Origin: Oscillospiraceae bacterium
GTDB lineage: Bacteria > Bacillota > Clostridia > Oscillospirales > Ruminococcaceae
Direction: 5' to 3'
DNA: 64,000 nucleotides
NCBI GenBank assembly: GCA_017427265.1
Contig: JAFRTG010000010.1
Location: forward strand, 1 to 64,000
Below the pieces are notes generated by a model that was given only the letters and a program-made list of their open reading frames with translations, had not been told where the DNA came from and did not search any database. Of the stretch, positions 9,405 to 58,883 are shown piece by piece; within the stretch, counting starts at the first letter, position 1; every line of letters begins with the position of its first letter. A program made the translations under genes and the position numbers.

Positions 9405-9974
9405 TCATTGTCTTATCTTAATTATTTTTGCAGGCACTCCAGCAACAGTAGAATTTATCTCTGTATTCTTACTTACAACAGCGCCAGCGGCAACTATAGT
9501 ACCCGTGGCTACTTTAGTTCCTCCAAGAATAGTGGCTTTAGCGCCTATCCAAACATTACTTTCAATTCTAATCGGTAAAGCTATAAGTGGCTGGTCTTTG
9601 ATAGGAGTACCCAAATCAGAAAAGCCATGATTTACAGAAAACATTGATGCACCTTCAGCAAACGATACATCATCTCCAATTTTCACTCCACCATACGCCT
9701 CAATATAAACCATAGGTTGAAAACTTACATTATTTCCAATCTCCAATTCTTGGACATTCTGTAAATAAACATCTGGAAATATAGAAACATTATCGCCCAC
9801 GCTTTTAGCCAGTGTTTTCAACAGGGCATACCTTTTAACAAGTGCTATGTTTCCAGGCTTCTTTCGTAAATTAGCCATCATCTTTAATCTGAAGCTCTTC
9901 GGAAATACTGAGTACACCTTTGTTAGAGCATTTATTAACGGCTTGAATTTTGCAAATTTTTCTCGTCCTCTCAT
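9405..9974 (-). CDS. Hexapeptide-repeat (LbH) acyltransferase
   Basis: A 189-residue left-handed beta-helix protein with repeating hexapeptides such as VGDNVSIFPDVYL, IGNNVSFQPMVYI and IESNVWIGAKATILGGTKV. The last is the conserved C-terminal coil of the maltose/galactoside acetyltransferase branch, and it contains a likely catalytic His in SVNHGFSD. It probably O-acetylates a sugar of the capsule repeat. A second, different LbH protein lies immediately upstream (9986-10531), so two modifications, or a two-part enzyme, are possible. Confidence 0.83.
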   Translation of the reverse strand: MRGREKFAKFKPLINALTKVYSVFPKSFRLKMMANLRKKPGNIALVKRYALLKTLAKSVGDNVSIFPDVYLQNVQELEIGNNVSFQPMVYIEAYGGVKIGDDVSFAEGASMFSVNHGFSDLGTPIKDQPLIALPIRIESNVWIGAKATILGGTKVATGTIVAAGAVVSKNTEINSTVAGVPAKIIKIRQ

Positions 9975-9985
9975 TGCTCTAGTTC

Positions 9986-10531
9986 CTACCTAACATCTTC
10001 TATTCTTTTTTGAAGAATAATAGAACCTTCTTTATACTTCCCTTTAATAATACAACCAGCACCTATAACACAGTTATCACCGATTTCTGATCCTCGAAGG
10101 ATCACAGTGTTTGCACCAATCCATACATTATTACCAATCTTAACCGGTGCTGTTCTGTACTTACCAGCCTTCACTCCGCCGACAACTCGAAAGTCGTGAT
10201 CATGATCATAAATTTGGACATTAGGACTCATCTGAACATCATGACCAATCTCGATTCGCTCTCTGCAAGCAATCATATTATTGCAGTTGATTGCTGTGTT
10301 GTTACCAATAATACAGGTCGCTCCTTTGCGAACTCTAATTTTAGCGCCATCACGCATCTTGAAGTTTTTGCCGATTTTCAGTTTTGCCCCTCTGTCCATA
10401 GTAATCTCTGTAAAAGGAGACACCAAACTGATAATCGGGCCTGAAAATGTAGCCGGATGGCACAGTTTAGTCCATCCCATTTTTATCATCCCGCAGGGGA
10501 CACAAATCGCTGCTCTTATATACTTATTCAA
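9986..10531 (-). CDS. Hexapeptide-repeat (LbH) acyltransferase
   Basis: A 181-residue left-handed beta-helix protein: IGKNFKMRDGAKIRVRKG, IGNNTAINCNNMI, and the catalytic-loop HDHDF, followed by IGNNVWIGANTVILRGSEIGDN. The start is a TTG that overlaps the stop of the upstream fusion gene (TTGA), with GAGG-like pairing just before it, so translation is coupled. The YDHDHDF segment places it with WcaF/LacA-like acetyltransferases. It likely decorates the polysaccharide. The acyl group and acceptor are not known. Confidence 0.83.
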   Translation of the reverse strand: MNKYIRAAICVPCGMIKMGWTKLCHPATFSGPIISLVSPFTEITMDRGAKLKIGKNFKMRDGAKIRVRKGATCIIGNNTAINCNNMIACRERIEIGHDVQMSPNVQIYDHDHDFRVVGGVKAGKYRTAPVKIGNNVWIGANTVILRGSEIGDNCVIGAGCIIKGKYKEGSIILQKRIEDVR

Positions 10532-46587: not shown

Positions 46588-46678
46588 CATAAAACCGGCA
46601 GGATGCTGTAATATTTTTGCCGCTGCGGGTACTAATTTACAAATCCGGATTTCATCATCAATGAGGAGGTGATCGCGC

Positions 46679-47179
46679 ATGGACGAGTTTGAGGACATTT
46701 ACCGGCTGTATCAGCCGGATGTCTACCGGTTTCTGCTCCGGCTGACCGGCTACGAACAGGCAACCGCTGAGGAACTGACGCAGGAAACCTTCTATCAGGC
46801 ATTTCTCTCCTTCGGCAGATTCCGCGGCGAATGCGGTCTGCGGACATGGCTTTACCAAATCGCCAAAAATGTGTACGGCAAATACATCCGGCGCGAGAGC
46901 AGACAGCGCAGCATCAAGCTGCAGCAGGAAAGTCCGCATGTATCAGCTCCGGCGGAATTGATCGAAAACCGGGAAATGCTGCGTGCATTCCGCGATCTGA
47001 TCGAGGCACTTGACGAGCCTGTCCGTTCGGTCATGGAATACCGGCTGTATACTGATACAAGCTATGCGGAAATTGCGCGCCTGCTGAATATCCGCTCCGG
47101 CACAGCAGCGGTCATCTACAACCGCACACTGGCCAGACTGCGCAAATCCATGAAAGAGAGGTATGGTTATGAAATATGA
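46679..47179 (+). CDS. ECF-type RNA polymerase sigma factor
   Basis: A 166-residue group 4 sigma factor. Region 2 (~5-70) has AEELTQETFYQAFLSFGRFRGECGLRTWLYQIAKNVYGKYIRR; region 4 (~105-160) has the helix-turn-helix YTDTSYAEIARLLNIRSGTAAVIYNRTLARLRK. The ATG follows GAGGAGGTGAT. The next gene overlaps its 3' end by 11 bases and encodes a zinc-finger anti-sigma factor, a standard SigW/RsiW-like pair. Target genes are unknown. Confidence 0.92.
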   Translation: MDEFEDIYRLYQPDVYRFLLRLTGYEQATAEELTQETFYQAFLSFGRFRGECGLRTWLYQIAKNVYGKYIRRESRQRSIKLQQESPHVSAPAELIENREMLRAFRDLIEALDEPVRSVMEYRLYTDTSYAEIARLLNIRSGTAAVIYNRTLARLRKSMKERYGYEI

Positions 47180-53729: not shown

Positions 53730-55811
53730 ATGAAACAAATTGCAAAAAGAAGATTTTTATCTGTCTCAGCAGCTGCGGTTGCACTGCTGTCCCTGCAGAG
53801 CGGCATGATCACCGCTTCTGCTTTCACGGAGCCGAAGCATTTTAACTGGGAATACTTTTCCTATGTTCCGTCCGATCTTGAAGACGTCAATGAAGTGATT
53901 GCAAAGTTCCATGTTTCACATGATCTTGATTTTAACGGAGACACTGTTATTGACGTCAAGGATTTCTATGAACTGGAAAAAACGATCAATGATTTGTACA
54001 AAGCGAACGGCTATACGCTGGCAACAGCACAGCAGGCAAACCCGGCCAACGACATTGACGGCGACGGTCTTGCCACCCCGAAGGATTACTGCTATCTTCT
54101 GAAGTATTTCCAGAAGGATTTTGATTGTGATATCAATGCCTCTGAAATGACAGCTACAATCACAAAATACAACGGCAACCTGCCTACGGTGGTTGTCCCT
54201 TCCAAGGTATTCAAATACGGCCGTATTTTCCCGGTCAGCCGTATCAGCTCCGATGCTTTTAAGGGCAACAAAAAGATTGAAACGATTGTATTCTCGGATT
54301 ACGTCCAGCCGTTCTGGAGCGCAAGACGTGCAAGCGGTGTGAATCTTGACGGCTACAAGCTCATTCCGACTGCGGGAACCGTCACGGCATGCACAAATCT
54401 CTGGCTCGGTGACGACGCATTCAAAGGCTGCTCCAACCTGAAAAATGTCTATCTGCCGACGCATATTGAGCTGAGCAACAGCGATGTTTTCGCAGATACA
54501 GAGTTCATCAAAACAGGCCAAGACATTATAGACGGCGTTTGCTATATCAAAGACAGCAGCGGAAAGGTTTACGTCGCTTACGATATCGAGGACAGCATGA
54601 AGAATGCTTCAAGCATCACCTTCCAAAACAAAACAACCGCCATCTGCACGAATGTCACCAAGAAGCTGAATAAGGAGACGCTGACCGATATTCAGATTCC
54701 GTCCGGACTTGAATTCATTGAAGATTATGCATTCAACGGCTTCAAAAATCTGGAAACCATCTGCGGAGAGTCCTATGCATCCTTTGAACAGAACCAGGAT
54801 GCAAATCACCAGAAGATCCTGAAAACGATCAAGCGTTATAACTGCGCATTTAATAACACAAGCTTCCTTGCTACTGCAACGCAGGAAAAGGTGAAAACAT
54901 TTGCAAATGCAATCAAGGATAATTGTAAGGATCCGACAAATGAGAAGGAACTGCTTCTCCAGCTTGGAAAGAAGTTTGCAAAGGATACCGAGTACAGCAC
55001 ATACCACAGCCTCGACCGCTTGAATGTAAATCTCCCCGAATCGGACTCCAATCCGTTTATCTTTACCAATCAGTTCTTCCTGTATCCGTGCGATCTGTAC
55101 AATACCAATGATATCTGCCGCGGCAGCGTTTATTCTGCAAGCACTGCATTCATCGAGGGTGATGCCAATACACCGGCCTATACAGAATGCGCGTCCTTCT
55201 CGCTTGCAGGTTCTCTGGTGATGGATCAGCTCGGAATCAGAAACTATTTCTGCGGCGCTCCCGGTCACGCATTGAATATGGTCTTCGTCAAAGACAAAAA
55301 TGACCCCAATGACAACGGCAAGTGGTATAAGACAGATCTTTCCGGCGTAAGCATCTGTGACTATTCCACATTGGATTACAATAACGGTTGGCTGTTCGGT
55401 GGACAGGATGGTGAAGGAAACACATGGATCAGCTTCAACGATCAGTTTGAAATGTTCCCGAATTCCTGCAACCGTCAGGCAATCTCCGGCTGCTTCCACC
55501 AGATCTACAATCAGTACGAAGACGGTACTCTGAGTGCAAAGTATGAAAAGGACAAAGAAGATACCAGAATCAAGAACCCTGAAGAACTGGTGGTCGAAAT
55601 GTACAAGCCACTGACGGTTTCCGAACAGCAGGCTCTCCAGAATGCACCGATCCGGACACAGTTAAGACTGCTGGAGCGCAATGCATGGAACACGATTTGT
55701 GGAACAGAATACTATGTCGGCGAAAACGGCGGTTTTCTCTCTAACTGCATTGCACCGGACGGCTACTGGGTAAATGCAGACGGCTCGAAGGGTGACAAAA
55801 GAGCAAAATAA
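53730..55811 (+). CDS. Secreted protein: N-terminal dockerin-like repeats, BspA-type LRRs and transglutaminase-like domain
   Basis: A 693-residue exported protein. Order: signal peptide (~1-31, cut after TASA); two EF-hand-like repeats (~64-135; DLDFNGDTVIDVKDFYELEK and DIDGDGLATPKDYCYLLKYF) spaced like a dockerin but placed at the N-terminus; LRR_5 repeats (~140-350; ISSDAFKGNKKIETIVFSD, DDAFKGCSNLKNVYLP, EDYAFNGFKNLETI); and a C-terminal papain/transglutaminase-like domain with a plausible Cys (~487, TECASFSLAGSL), His (~512, GHALNMVF) and Asp (~535, WYKTDLSG). It could be a cellulosome-bound peptidase or crosslinking enzyme. ATG follows GGGAGG. Substrate unknown. Confidence 0.75.
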   Translation: MKQIAKRRFLSVSAAAVALLSLQSGMITASAFTEPKHFNWEYFSYVPSDLEDVNEVIAKFHVSHDLDFNGDTVIDVKDFYELEKTINDLYKANGYTLATAQQANPANDIDGDGLATPKDYCYLLKYFQKDFDCDINASEMTATITKYNGNLPTVVVPSKVFKYGRIFPVSRISSDAFKGNKKIETIVFSDYVQPFWSARRASGVNLDGYKLIPTAGTVTACTNLWLGDDAFKGCSNLKNVYLPTHIELSNSDVFADTEFIKTGQDIIDGVCYIKDSSGKVYVAYDIEDSMKNASSITFQNKTTAICTNVTKKLNKETLTDIQIPSGLEFIEDYAFNGFKNLETICGESYASFEQNQDANHQKILKTIKRYNCAFNNTSFLATATQEKVKTFANAIKDNCKDPTNEKELLLQLGKKFAKDTEYSTYHSLDRLNVNLPESDSNPFIFTNQFFLYPCDLYNTNDICRGSVYSASTAFIEGDANTPAYTECASFSLAGSLVMDQLGIRNYFCGAPGHALNMVFVKDKNDPNDNGKWYKTDLSGVSICDYSTLDYNNGWLFGGQDGEGNTWISFNDQFEMFPNSCNRQAISGCFHQIYNQYEDGTLSAKYEKDKEDTRIKNPEELVVEMYKPLTVSEQQALQNAPIRTQLRLLERNAWNTICGTEYYVGENGGFLSNCIAPDGYWVNADGSKGDKRAK

Positions 55812-56007: not shown

Positions 56008-57240
56008 TCAGATCAGCTTTGCGATCATTTTCAGGATCACAGTCACATCGTCAAGGTTGATGTCTCCGTCACTGTTGAGGTCTGCGTTCTGTTTGCCGAG
56101 ATCGGTAACGGCAGCGCTGCTGTCTCCGCTGACGAATTTTGCAGCGAGCACCGCATCAGAGATATCAACCGTGCAGTCGATGTTCAGGTCTCCGGGCGAT
56201 GCAAGGGCGTTCTGACCGATCAGCGGCGCAGCGGCAGATGCCGGACAACTCCATTCAGATGCGATTCCGAATTTTTCATAAAGCTCTGCTGCAATCGCAA
56301 AATGCTCCGGGAATGTTATTCTGTCCGGCGGAATCACAGCATACATTTCGTCCCGATCGTCAAAGTATGCTTTGTTCTGTCCGTAAAGATAGCGTCCGAT
56401 TTTTTTGGCAAGCTCCGTATCTTCGAGCGTTACGCGGACAAATTCGCATTCGGGATGATGCACCTGTACCCACGCTTCAATGGATGTCCAGTCGTATGTG
56501 ATTTCTTCCGGCGCAGTATGGTCACTGTTCCATTTCTGGCGAGTGGGAAAATATGCTGTGGGATAGCCGTACCAGACTTCCTGATAATTTGCAGTTTCTC
56601 CCCATGTATAGAATTCGGAGATCAGCTCTGCTTCTGCAAGATCACGCAGAATGCCGTCAGAGATTTCGGGAGAGCCGGCAGTCTTTGCTTCTTCCGTCGA
56701 ATCATATTTGCTCCTGTCACAAAGATCATAGTAGTATTCAAGGTCAGACACGCCTTCTGTTACCTGATAAACATAATACCTTTGGGGTGCTAGGGGCGTT
56801 GTGATCCGGGAGAATTCGGTAATCCCAGGATAGTATTTCTCCAGAATCTCAAACATTTTTTGTTCTGCTTCATCGTGGTCAAGCTCCTTGCGCAAGCCAA
56901 TCCGCAGTTCATTCTCCCGCGGACAGACCACATAAACCGGATTGCCTTCATGATGACGCCGTTCTGTTTTCGTTTCGCCGGTGTCAAGGTCGGTCCATGT
57001 TTCATCCCGGTCATACGAATAGTGATAGGTGTAAACCTGATAATTGTCAGCAGTTCCGATCCCTTCGCCGCGGGGTATCGCTGCAAACATCCCCTTGTCG
57101 TCCAGCAGCGTCATATCGTGGAATTCCGCACCGGATGCGCTTCCCCAGCAATGCAGGGCAGAAACCGGCGCTGCGGGAATTGCGCCGCACAGCATGACTG
57201 CGCCTGCAAGCATCGCAGCAAATCTCATGCGCTTTTTCAT
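56008..57240 (-). CDS. Secreted dockerin-bearing protein of unknown function
   Basis: A 410-residue exported protein: signal peptide (~1-29, cut after PVSA), an unrecognised ~310-residue region rich in Tyr, Glu and Asp (ETWTDLDTGETKTERRHHEGNPVYVV; YYYDLCDRSKYDSTEEA), and a C-terminal type I dockerin (~350-410: GDLNIDCTVDISDAVLAAKF and ADLNSDGDINLDDVTVILKM). The dockerin is almost the same as that of the GH9 enzyme, including VSGDSSA between the repeats, so both should bind the same cohesin. Its ATG overlaps the upstream anti-sigma-like gene by four bases, making it the third gene of a sigma factor operon. Confidence 0.85.
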   Translation of the reverse strand: MKKRMRFAAMLAGAVMLCGAIPAAPVSALHCWGSASGAEFHDMTLLDDKGMFAAIPRGEGIGTADNYQVYTYHYSYDRDETWTDLDTGETKTERRHHEGNPVYVVCPRENELRIGLRKELDHDEAEQKMFEILEKYYPGITEFSRITTPLAPQRYYVYQVTEGVSDLEYYYDLCDRSKYDSTEEAKTAGSPEISDGILRDLAEAELISEFYTWGETANYQEVWYGYPTAYFPTRQKWNSDHTAPEEITYDWTSIEAWVQVHHPECEFVRVTLEDTELAKKIGRYLYGQNKAYFDDRDEMYAVIPPDRITFPEHFAIAAELYEKFGIASEWSCPASAAAPLIGQNALASPGDLNIDCTVDISDAVLAAKFVSGDSSAAVTDLGKQNADLNSDGDINLDDVTVILKMIAKLI

Positions 57241-58211
57241 TGTAATCCCTCCTGTTCCCGGATTTCGATGGTCAGGCTGTCTGTCAGCATTGCCTGATAT
57301 TCGGTTTCATCTGTCAGAATCAAATACTCTGCGGTGCAGTTTTCCGGTTCCATTACAAGATCATCCGGAATCGGCAGCGCAAAATGGAAAGTAGAATTCT
57401 CCATATTCTTTTTTTTCAGGCAAGCGATTTTCAGCTGCAATCCATTGTCTGTCAGAGTGCCGCCGATCACCGCTGCATCCTGATACATAAATGTATCCAG
57501 TACGATCAGCAGACATTGATGCTGTGTCAGATCATATTCCGTCGGTATGCCATATGCTTTACGGTAATATTCGCGCTGTTCATCATCTGAAACGGGCGGA
57601 CAAACGGTGATTTTGCCTGAAATCATCGGCTTGGGTTCTTCCGGATAATCATCCTGATGCATCGGGATTCCTTTCCAGAGCGGAACCCTGATTGCCGTAG
57701 TCTGCGGTTCGGTTGTAACCGGTGAGTCAACCGGAACAACTGTTGCAGTTGCAGTGCGTTCAGTTTTCGGCGGCTCTGTAGATACAGCCGCATCCGTCCG
57801 AATGGGTGCAGCTTCGGTGATGGTATTTGTCTGAATCGGTGTGTCCGCTTCAGTAACAACAGCTGAAACCGGAACATTTGTCGATGCAGGCACGGGTACA
57901 GTTACGGAAGATTCTGTTGTCTGCACCGGCAAAGTTACAGTTTGTGTTTCAGCATAGCAGGATAAATCGGGGGGATCTGTCGCTGCAGTGATAACTTCCG
58001 CCGATGCCGCCGTTGATTCAGACAGCTCCGCAATCTCCGGTGTTTGTATCCGCAGCTTCGGATAAACAACCGCCGCAATCAGCAGAACGATCGCCGCAGC
58101 AGCCGCAGAAATCTGATACCAATGGACAGGCTTGCTGCGCGGTTTTGCAGCAGATACGATGTATTCATCCGAAATATCAGTCAGCAGTTCCGAAAATGCA
58201 GTTGGATTCAC
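57237..58211 (-). CDS. Membrane anti-sigma-like protein with Thr/Pro-rich outer linker
   Basis: A 324-residue single-pass protein. A short cytoplasmic N-terminus (FSELLTDISDEYIVSAAKPRSK, ~5-27) could bind the sigma factor. One helix follows (YQISAAAAAIVLLIAAVVYP, ~32-51), then a Thr/Pro/Val-rich linker (~70-185) and an outer domain (~195-320; KITVCPPVSDDEQREYYRKAYGIPTEYDL; TAEYLILTDETEYQAM). No zinc-finger motif is present, unlike the other anti-sigma factor in the window. It overlaps both neighbours by four bases, an arrangement like sigma/anti-sigma pairs such as SigI/RsgI. The anti-sigma role is inferred from position and topology. Confidence 0.65.
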   Translation of the reverse strand: MNPTAFSELLTDISDEYIVSAAKPRSKPVHWYQISAAAAAIVLLIAAVVYPKLRIQTPEIAELSESTAASAEVITAATDPPDLSCYAETQTVTLPVQTTESSVTVPVPASTNVPVSAVVTEADTPIQTNTITEAAPIRTDAAVSTEPPKTERTATATVVPVDSPVTTEPQTTAIRVPLWKGIPMHQDDYPEEPKPMISGKITVCPPVSDDEQREYYRKAYGIPTEYDLTQHQCLLIVLDTFMYQDAAVIGGTLTDNGLQLKIACLKKKNMENSTFHFALPIPDDLVMEPENCTAEYLILTDETEYQAMLTDSLTIEIREQEGLQ

Positions 58212-58774
58212 AGCAGTCCCTCCTTTCCAAGATGCTTCTGCAGCCGTTTGCGCAGGCGCGAAAGCGTCACAGTTACGTGATTTTCCGTCATATGAAACCT
58301 GTCAGAAAGCGCTGCAATGCTGTCCGCATACCAATACCGGCGGACGAACAGATCGCGCTGTTTTTGCGGCAGTCCTTTCAGAAAGGCATTGACCGCATCC
58401 AGCATCTCGCGGCGTTCGATTTCGCTGATGACATCACCTCTGTCCGGAATAATCTCTTCCAGTTCGTCGATCGAACCGGCAAGATTTGCTGCGCTGCGCT
58501 TTTCCGTGTGGGCTGCACGGTAGCGGTCATGCGCGGCATTGCGTACCAGACGCAGCAGATACGCGCAAAAGTTCTTTGGCTTAGCAGGCGGAATCGCATT
58601 CCATGCGGCAAGCATCGCGTCGTTCAGACATTCTTCGGCATCCTCATCGCTGCCGGTGATATTGCGCGCAACAGACCGGCAGAGCGCTCCGTACTGCCTG
58701 CTGCTTTCGGAGATCGCCTGCTCGCTTCGCTGTTCAAATAGCCGGATGATTGCCTGATCCTTCACGGCTGCCAC
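58208..58774 (-). CDS. ECF-type sigma factor heading a dockerin-protein operon
   Basis: A 188-residue group 4 sigma factor. Region 2 (~20-90) shows EDAEECLNDAMLAAWNAIPPAKPKNFCAYLLRLVRNAAHDRYR; region 4 (~125-180) shows LPQKQRDLFVRRYWYADSIAALSDRFHMTENHVTVTLSRLRKRLQKHL. The start is GTG 58774 or GTG 58765; the second has better distance from AAGGG. Its stop overlaps the anti-sigma-like gene (ATGA). Promoter at 58855-58883. Confidence 0.9.
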   Translation of the reverse strand: MAAVKDQAIIRLFEQRSEQAISESSRQYGALCRSVARNITGSDEDAEECLNDAMLAAWNAIPPAKPKNFCAYLLRLVRNAAHDRYRAAHTEKRSAANLAGSIDELEEIIPDRGDVISEIERREMLDAVNAFLKGLPQKQRDLFVRRYWYADSIAALSDRFHMTENHVTVTLSRLRKRLQKHLGKEGLL

Positions 58775-58854
58775 CGCCCTTCGTGTCCGCCTTCATACAT
58801 AAGAACGTGATAGATGCAAAAATACAACACACTGCAAAAAAATTTTCTGTTTTT

Positions 58855-58883
58855 ATTATAGATGATTTCCGGGCGTTTTGCAA
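58855..58883 (-). promoter_or_regulatory. Promoter of the sigma/anti-sigma/dockerin operon
   Basis: On the minus strand TTGCAA (58878-58883), 17 bases, TATAAT (58855-58860), about 80 bases before the sigma gene. It is vegetative in type; no separate ECF-type promoter was recognised. Confidence 0.65.

Follow-up and report, generated by a model that had tools for sequence, protein, structure and literature searches.

The window analysed here, the 64,000 nucleotides at positions 1 to 64,000 of contig JAFRTG010000010.1 (assembly GCA_017427265.1, Oscillospiraceae bacterium), carries on its minus strand an operon of three genes that encode, in order, a sigma factor of the extracytoplasmic function (ECF) type, an anti-sigma-like protein with one transmembrane (TM) helix and a secreted protein with a C-terminal dockerin. 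The sigma factor gene (58208..58774; 188 amino acids) was called from its open reading frame (ORF) and from Pfam and NCBIfam matches, its exact start being uncertain by a few codons. The TM protein gene (57237..58211; 324 amino acids, GTG start) was placed by its overlap with the sigma gene, and the dockerin protein gene (56008..57240; 410 amino acids) by ORF reading and by library and homology searches. Neighbours overlap by exactly four bases, at 58208-58211 (sigma and TM genes) and at 57237-57240 (TM and dockerin genes), as a first-pass annotation of the sequence had claimed. Upstream lies an ECF-type promoter, TGTTGTATTTT-N11-CGTTCTTAT (58799..58829, minus strand), read by eye among upstream regions and scored at 24.4 with a position weight matrix (PWM).

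The sigma factor matched the NCBIfam sigma70-ECF model TIGR02937 (E 6.8e-24; 84.4 bits, cut-off 42.9) and Pfam Sigma70_r2 (E 4.4e-13; 49.3 bits, over cut-off), with region 4 (Sigma70_r4_2) at 25.4 bits, just under the cut-off of 25.7. Having regions 2 and 4 only and the ECF model over cut-off, the protein classifies as an ECF sigma-70 factor, the identity first proposed for it; the ECF model was also the best of the 25 NCBIfam matches listed out of 53, none of which was a SigI model. A search of the 3.82 Mb host genome returned 20 matches, namely 18 full-length copies, the window copy included, one partial and one distant. All 18 full-length copies overlap by four bases with a gene for a one-TM protein whose N-terminal motif is similar and whose outer part varies widely, and a dockerin gene stands third in three of them: the window copy and those on contigs C49 (at 60 bp) and C25 (at 130 bp, encoding a GH26-CBM35-dockerin protein). 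A match limited to residues 4-73 of the window sigma (L048, near 9912-10124 of G000:C30), with large dockerin proteins nearby, looks like a decayed copy. The window itself holds a second, more distant ECF-like sigma gene (46607-47176, plus strand; E 2e-7 against the hidden Markov model (HMM) of the family) followed by a gene for a 318-aa TM protein, with a promoter-like site at 46607 (score 20.9, spacer 10) just upstream.

The layout of the TM protein agrees with its earlier description as a single-pass protein with a short cytoplasmic tail, a Thr/Pro-rich linker and an outer domain. About 30 cytoplasmic residues precede a TM helix near residues 34-52 (58056..58112, minus strand, by hydropathy), followed by a Thr/Ser/Pro-rich extracellular linker read in the sequence (57699..58049, minus strand) and an outer, putative sensor domain of 150 amino acids (57240..57698, minus strand). 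For comparison, 62 trio rows were reduced by identical second genes to 46 unique trios, a set that differs from the 46 loci of the sigma clade described below. The conserved N-terminal motif, MNPTAFSELLTDISDEYIVSAA (58146..58211, minus strand), was matched in all 46 unique trio TM proteins by a regular expression written after the sequences had been seen, and its conservation suggests that the N-terminal ~30 residues bind the sigma factor. The string YPKLR directly follows the TM helix, and the exact juxtamembrane string recurs in 19/46 unique trio proteins; the zinc motif HxxxCxxC occurs in none of the 46.

No Pfam or NCBIfam model, including those of known anti-sigma domains, matched the TM protein over cut-off, and at E up to 1 the RsgI N-terminal domain, for which these libraries have a model, was not matched in it. 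Structure prediction, proposed earlier as a check, gave the outer domain a confidently modelled fold, compact and rich in beta strands, into which a single helix is inserted, and left it with no fold match in the PDB: Foldseek and VIA returned no convincing match and no cohesin among the listed fold matches, and sequence searches of Pfam, NCBIfam and the PDB found no family. The outer parts of sensors at other loci are diverse. Those of L033 and L036 look PASTA-repeat-like, and those of L035, L038, L040, L041 and L043 beta-propeller-like, both from sequence and without library confirmation. A cohesin-like reading of the outer domains of L031 and L042 was unsupported (hhalign 2.3% and 8%, no cohesin matches).

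The third protein starts with a signal peptide, recognised by eye and by hydropathy, and has its dockerin at the C-terminal end, residues 350-408 (56017..56193, minus strand). Pfam Dockerin_1 scored 21.5 bits (E 2.7e-4), slightly below its cut-off of 22.9; our own dockerin HMM matched, and a profile of 46 third-gene proteins matched the solved 'Group I Dockerin' 5m2o with E 3.8e-13. Two calcium-loop repeats over about 60 residues, with loops DLNIDCTVDISD and DLNSDGDINLDD, can be read in the sequence, and together these features identify the C-terminus as a predicted type I dockerin, as first annotated. The intervening body (56206..57156, minus strand) shows a ferredoxin-like alpha/beta arrangement in part of its structure model; it belongs to no known family, and searches of Pfam, NCBIfam and PDB sequences, Foldseek and VIA gave no convincing match to it, the dockerin alone being confident. 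The window also encodes a GH9-CBM3 cellulase (GH9 domain, E 6.6e-112), to whose dockerin that of the third protein had been described as nearly identical; at 63% identity over 60 residues, that wording was too strong. In the host genome, 24 cohesin matches were found at E up to 0.1 and 22 at E up to 0.001, in a search that also gave matches in 2/14 well-known control genomes, and the third protein had 48 matches, most through the dockerin alone. We infer that the genome belongs to a cellulosome maker. Tail to tail with the operon lies a plus-strand gene (53730-55811) whose product, 693 amino acids long, combines LRR_5 and choline-binding-type repeats and gives a weak dockerin match near its N-terminus (E 0.0072, below cut-off); no ECF promoter lies upstream (best score 3.3).

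To learn how far the gene order extends, we searched 30 genomes of the genus and found the sigma family in all of them, with between 3 and 37 matches per genome; from outside the host genome, the regions around the 43 best matches were taken. In a tree of 65 sigma sequences, the window sigma fell with full support (100/100) inside a clade of 46, made up of three host-genome sigmas and these 43 matches, from 17 genomes. Three members of the clade (L108, L109 and L112; sigma identity 57, 78 and 60%) had first been picked for their third gene, as had L114 outside it. A dockerin gene stands third in 39/46 clade loci (17 genomes), in 38 of them within 100 bp, and the four-base overlap of sigma and TM genes recurs in 45/46; the arrangement is thus beyond chance. 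Outside the clade, where 15 of the 19 family members are host-genome paralogues, a dockerin third gene was seen in two. One of them, L114, has a sigma of another group and comes from another genus, and the body of its dockerin protein is related to that of the window protein.

A second scan, of named genomes and with an alignment of 18 sigmas as query, gave 572 loci, of which the best 80 were taken. The third gene encodes a dockerin protein in 23 of the 26 closest of these (L155-L180) and in none of the 54 more distant (L181-L234), six of which have fewer than 900 bases beyond the second gene. Because some loci of the second scan lie on the same contigs as those of the first, the counts from the two scans overlap and are not independent. 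The first-pass annotation had proposed a search for this order in other genomes and had treated confinement to one strain as fatal to its proposal; because the order is conserved well beyond the strain, that objection is removed.

Upstream of the clade sigma genes we found a two-part ECF-type motif, TGTAACCTTTT-N11-CGTTCTTAT. Early regular expressions for it were too narrow (20/46 sigmas; 35/46 when loosened, against 1.97 in shuffles) and were replaced by the PWM. With this matrix, 45/46 clade sigmas scored above the shuffled 95% point, a proportion somewhat flattered by the procedure, in which the matrix was started from short seeds and refitted on the same sequences while the shuffles were scored with its final form. 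The median score was 23.8 for real upstream regions and -1.9 for shuffles (95% point 7.2, maximum 20.6), and the spacer was 11 in 45/46. At control dockerin genes the promoter was mostly lacking, with best scores of -0.8 to 6.5 at four loci; a fifth, L051, scored 12.4, over the shuffled 95% point, with spacer 10 and a TTGACA/TATAAT-like site. These data are consistent with an autoregulatory two-part promoter preceding the gene of the sigma factor that reads it.

The window promoter, searched at up to three mismatches, has a single match in the host genome (none with a reversed-pattern control); it is unique there, so the only strong target seen for the window sigma is its own operon. In the same genome, the window promoter revealed no wider regulon above background. 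A second search with it found three sites, one of them its own, against seven in the reversed control; a general promoter pattern found at three mismatches only the promoter of a sister sigma on contig C48; and a relaxed mixed pattern gave seven sites, of which only the two sigma promoters were meaningful, against six in the control.

The C48 sigma is a member of the clade that lacks a dockerin third gene and has a promoter of the type TGTAACCTTTT-N11-GGTCTWTAT. This pattern matched four sites in the host genome at up to three mismatches (two in the control). One is the sigma's own promoter, and two others, at up to two mismatches, precede dockerin proteins: a 352-aa protein 55 bp downstream, 30% identical to residues 246-409 of the window third protein and unmatched by a search with the body only, and a 911-aa protein (dockerin E 9.2e-13) 120 bp downstream. 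The fourth site, with three mismatches, precedes an unrelated regulator. In eight other genomes, chosen by hand from the 30 and searched at up to two mismatches, there were 25 sites against two with the reversed pattern. Eight lie at sigma genes themselves, and 14 of the 17 remaining precede dockerin proteins, the 14th recognised after the full gene had been read. The first 13 of these proteins have signal-peptide-like starts, with the site 22-261 bp upstream, distances that depend on the start codon chosen.

When near-orthologues were grouped and the sigma left out, 11/12 target groups were dockerin proteins. Counted before the 14th had been read, the 13/14 dockerin targets compare with 225 dockerin ORFs among the 4,339 of Ruminococcus flavefaciens FD-1, for which PMC2721979 gives 56 up and 14 down on cellulose; the binomial probability is 2.6e-16, from sites that are not fully independent. 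The sister-sigma promoter often stands before members of a family of large dockerin proteins (L280, L283-L286, L289, L290 and G000:C18 82714-85600), which form one homology cluster of eight and share a recurring 'W-V-P-x-D-F'-like module. The sites in trans are the strongest evidence that sigmas of the clade would drive the expression of dockerin proteins.

We therefore propose, with a probability of roughly 0.8, that the operon is one copy of a large cell-surface signalling family in cellulosome-making Ruminococcus-type bacteria, of whose switches dockerin proteins would be the output; the clade sigmas most likely turn on the production of dockerin proteins for the cellulosome of ruminococci. 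The membrane protein would keep the ECF sigma inactive through its short N-terminal tail until the sigma is freed, either by a signal acting on the outer domain or because the outer part is lost or cut by proteolysis. The free sigma would then transcribe its own operon from the dedicated promoter, a conserved and correctly placed sequence, so that sigma, anti-sigma and secreted dockerin protein would rise together and the last, to judge from its dockerin, would dock into the cellulosome. Sister sigmas of the clade may act alike, and for at least one sister type there are extra promoter sites upstream of dockerin genes at other places in the genome. The evidence favours the simpler direction, in which the sigma controls the dockerin protein over one in which the dockerin protein informs the sigma.

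Several observations weigh against this proposal. Seven of the 46 clade loci have no dockerin third gene, and one of these, L123, also has no detected second gene. The body of the third protein varies across clade loci, and the window type is rare, occurring in 6/396 genomes of the family and in 2/7 same-genus genomes of the sample; the secreted-protein family is also present without a sigma neighbour (L050, L113). Three of the 17 sites in trans do not precede a recognised dockerin gene: one stands before a membrane protein without a dockerin, as judged by eye (L288), one before another sigma gene of this family (L292), and the third (L293, kin of L291) runs off the end of its contig. The anti-sigma role is read from position and a short motif, with no known anti-sigma domain matched. 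For the window copy, whose promoter occurs only at its own operon, the link to the cellulosome is made by one dockerin gene.

What the outer domain senses is a separate question, and the accounts that we consider best are both compatible with the proposed switch. In the first, the outer domain, like that of RsgI, would bind a glycan of plant or other origin, and the dockerin protein would be one regulated product. Such glycan sensing resembles the working of the SigI/RsgI pairs of Clostridium thermocellum as described in PMC6056542 and PMC12484212, and it agrees with the text of PMC4300822, where in Ruminococcus albus 7 the genes of an ECF sigma factor (Rumal_2572, 8.82-fold) and a TM protein (Rumal_2573, 8.18-fold) are among those whose RNA-Seq level on cellulose exceeds that on cellobiose more than 4-fold, without comment there; that pair is only a candidate member of the window family. 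Against it, neither the window TM protein nor, at E up to 0.1, any of the 46 trio proteins matched a family of carbohydrate-binding modules (CBM), glycoside hydrolases (GH) or other sugar-binding domains, and the outer domain had no structural match. We hold this reading tentatively, at slightly less than even odds, and for the window copy rank it above the second.

The second account, that the occupancy of the cellulosome is what the pathway senses or adjusts, was the suggestion of the first-pass annotation: the outer domain would bind, or compete with, the dockerin protein, measure free against built-in partner and adjust the supply. The window pair itself speaks against it, since its outer domain is not cohesin-like by profile (hhalign 0.1% against eight host-genome cohesins) and a homology to its dockerin partner was rejected (0.3%); the idea survives through relatives only. 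In 11/46 unique trios the outer part of the sensor is homologous to the body of the partner (mean 1.07 and maximum 5 in 5000 permutations), with four unrelated types of shared domain by our grouping and six of the 11 trios of one type. At one locus, L122, the sensor and its Doc-Coh partner each have a cohesin-like domain, and the two domains are 50% identical across 211 columns. Their matches to Pfam Cohesin (E 0.0011 and 0.0055) did not reach the cut-off, and the best PDB match was a cohesin (E 0.019); hhalign of the pair against the eight host-genome cohesins gave only 40%, and the partner is laid out like an adaptor scaffoldin, resembling ScaC, whose role is given in PMC3573020. In the host genome, an anti-sigma-like TM protein beside a distant sigma (L049, 3189-4565 of G000:C22) ends in a dockerin (Pfam E 2e-8) and could itself dock to a cohesin. 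A clade sensor, L146 (4800-6107), has outer repeats that resemble those of dockerins on visual reading, with a Pfam Dockerin_1 match (E 0.012) below cut-off.

In family members whose sensor copies a domain of the partner, the two proteins probably come into contact with a common ligand or with one another. Shared domains could equally reflect a shared ligand, and occupancy sensing, favoured in those trios, seems unlikely for the window copy. It is likewise doubtful, as a general scheme, that a battery of ECF switches with sensors copying cellulosome parts (cohesin, dockerin or partner domain) reads the state of assembly and orders the missing dockerin protein. If it does, a self-assembling machine would be quality-controlled by its own connectors, through cohesin-dockerin-type or like-to-like contacts.

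A general envelope-stress ECF pair, with the dockerin gene carried along by neighbourhood and without a role in the circuit, would explain why in 15/18 host-genome copies no dockerin gene follows in third place within 400 bp, and why the 54 more distant loci of the second scan, from Oscillospiraceae, Lachnospiraceae and other Clostridia, lack one. The retention of the dockerin gene across most clade loci and the sister promoters before dockerin genes in trans make it improbable. That the trio is an annotation accident, of overlapping frames or chance neighbourhood, can practically be dismissed: nothing was found in its favour, and order, overlap and promoter are conserved across genomes.

The closest known systems are the SigI/RsgI pairs of Clostridium (Acetivibrio) thermocellum and relatives, described in PMC6056542 and PMC12484212 as multi-copy and autoregulated, with a sensor-bearing membrane anti-sigma factor and cellulosome targets. 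The window system shares with them the multi-copy pairs of sigma and putative membrane anti-sigma, the extracellular sensor part and, as predicted, the autoregulation and the control of cellulosome genes. It differs in that its sigma fits the ECF model, its cytoplasmic tail amounts to a short motif, a CBM is not seen and the operon has a dockerin gene in third place. With neither the sigma type nor the inhibitor domain of SigI/RsgI found, it appears to work like that system without being a member, which supports the earlier view of a pair of another type tied to the cellulosome by its dockerin protein. ECF sigma/one-TM pairs of Clostridia (second gene starting ~MKKEEhhExhGxIDxxYhxEA) have the same sigma family, mostly the four-base overlap and a similar motif; among the loci seen, a regular dockerin third gene is confined to the ruminococcal clade, and the dockerin sites in trans come from a clade member. 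The third-gene products are themselves dockerin proteins of unknown function like those of R. flavefaciens. Unlike these and ScaC, for which we found no regulator in published accounts, they come with one attached, in sigma operons.

Searches of the open PMC library turned up no publication that connects dockerin genes of Ruminococcus with ECF sigma factors. According to a 2024 survey (PMC11557425), a dedicated suite of RsgI receptors is used by Acetivibrio-type cellulosome makers alone. This leaves the control of Ruminococcus cellulosomes to be explained, although R. flavefaciens FD-1 does change the expression of its dockerin genes with the substrate (PMC2721979). The operon family described here would be a concrete candidate for that control, with promoters, first target genes and matched pairs of sensor and partner, in a fibre-digesting gut bacterium whose kin are central to fibre digestion in rumen and gut.

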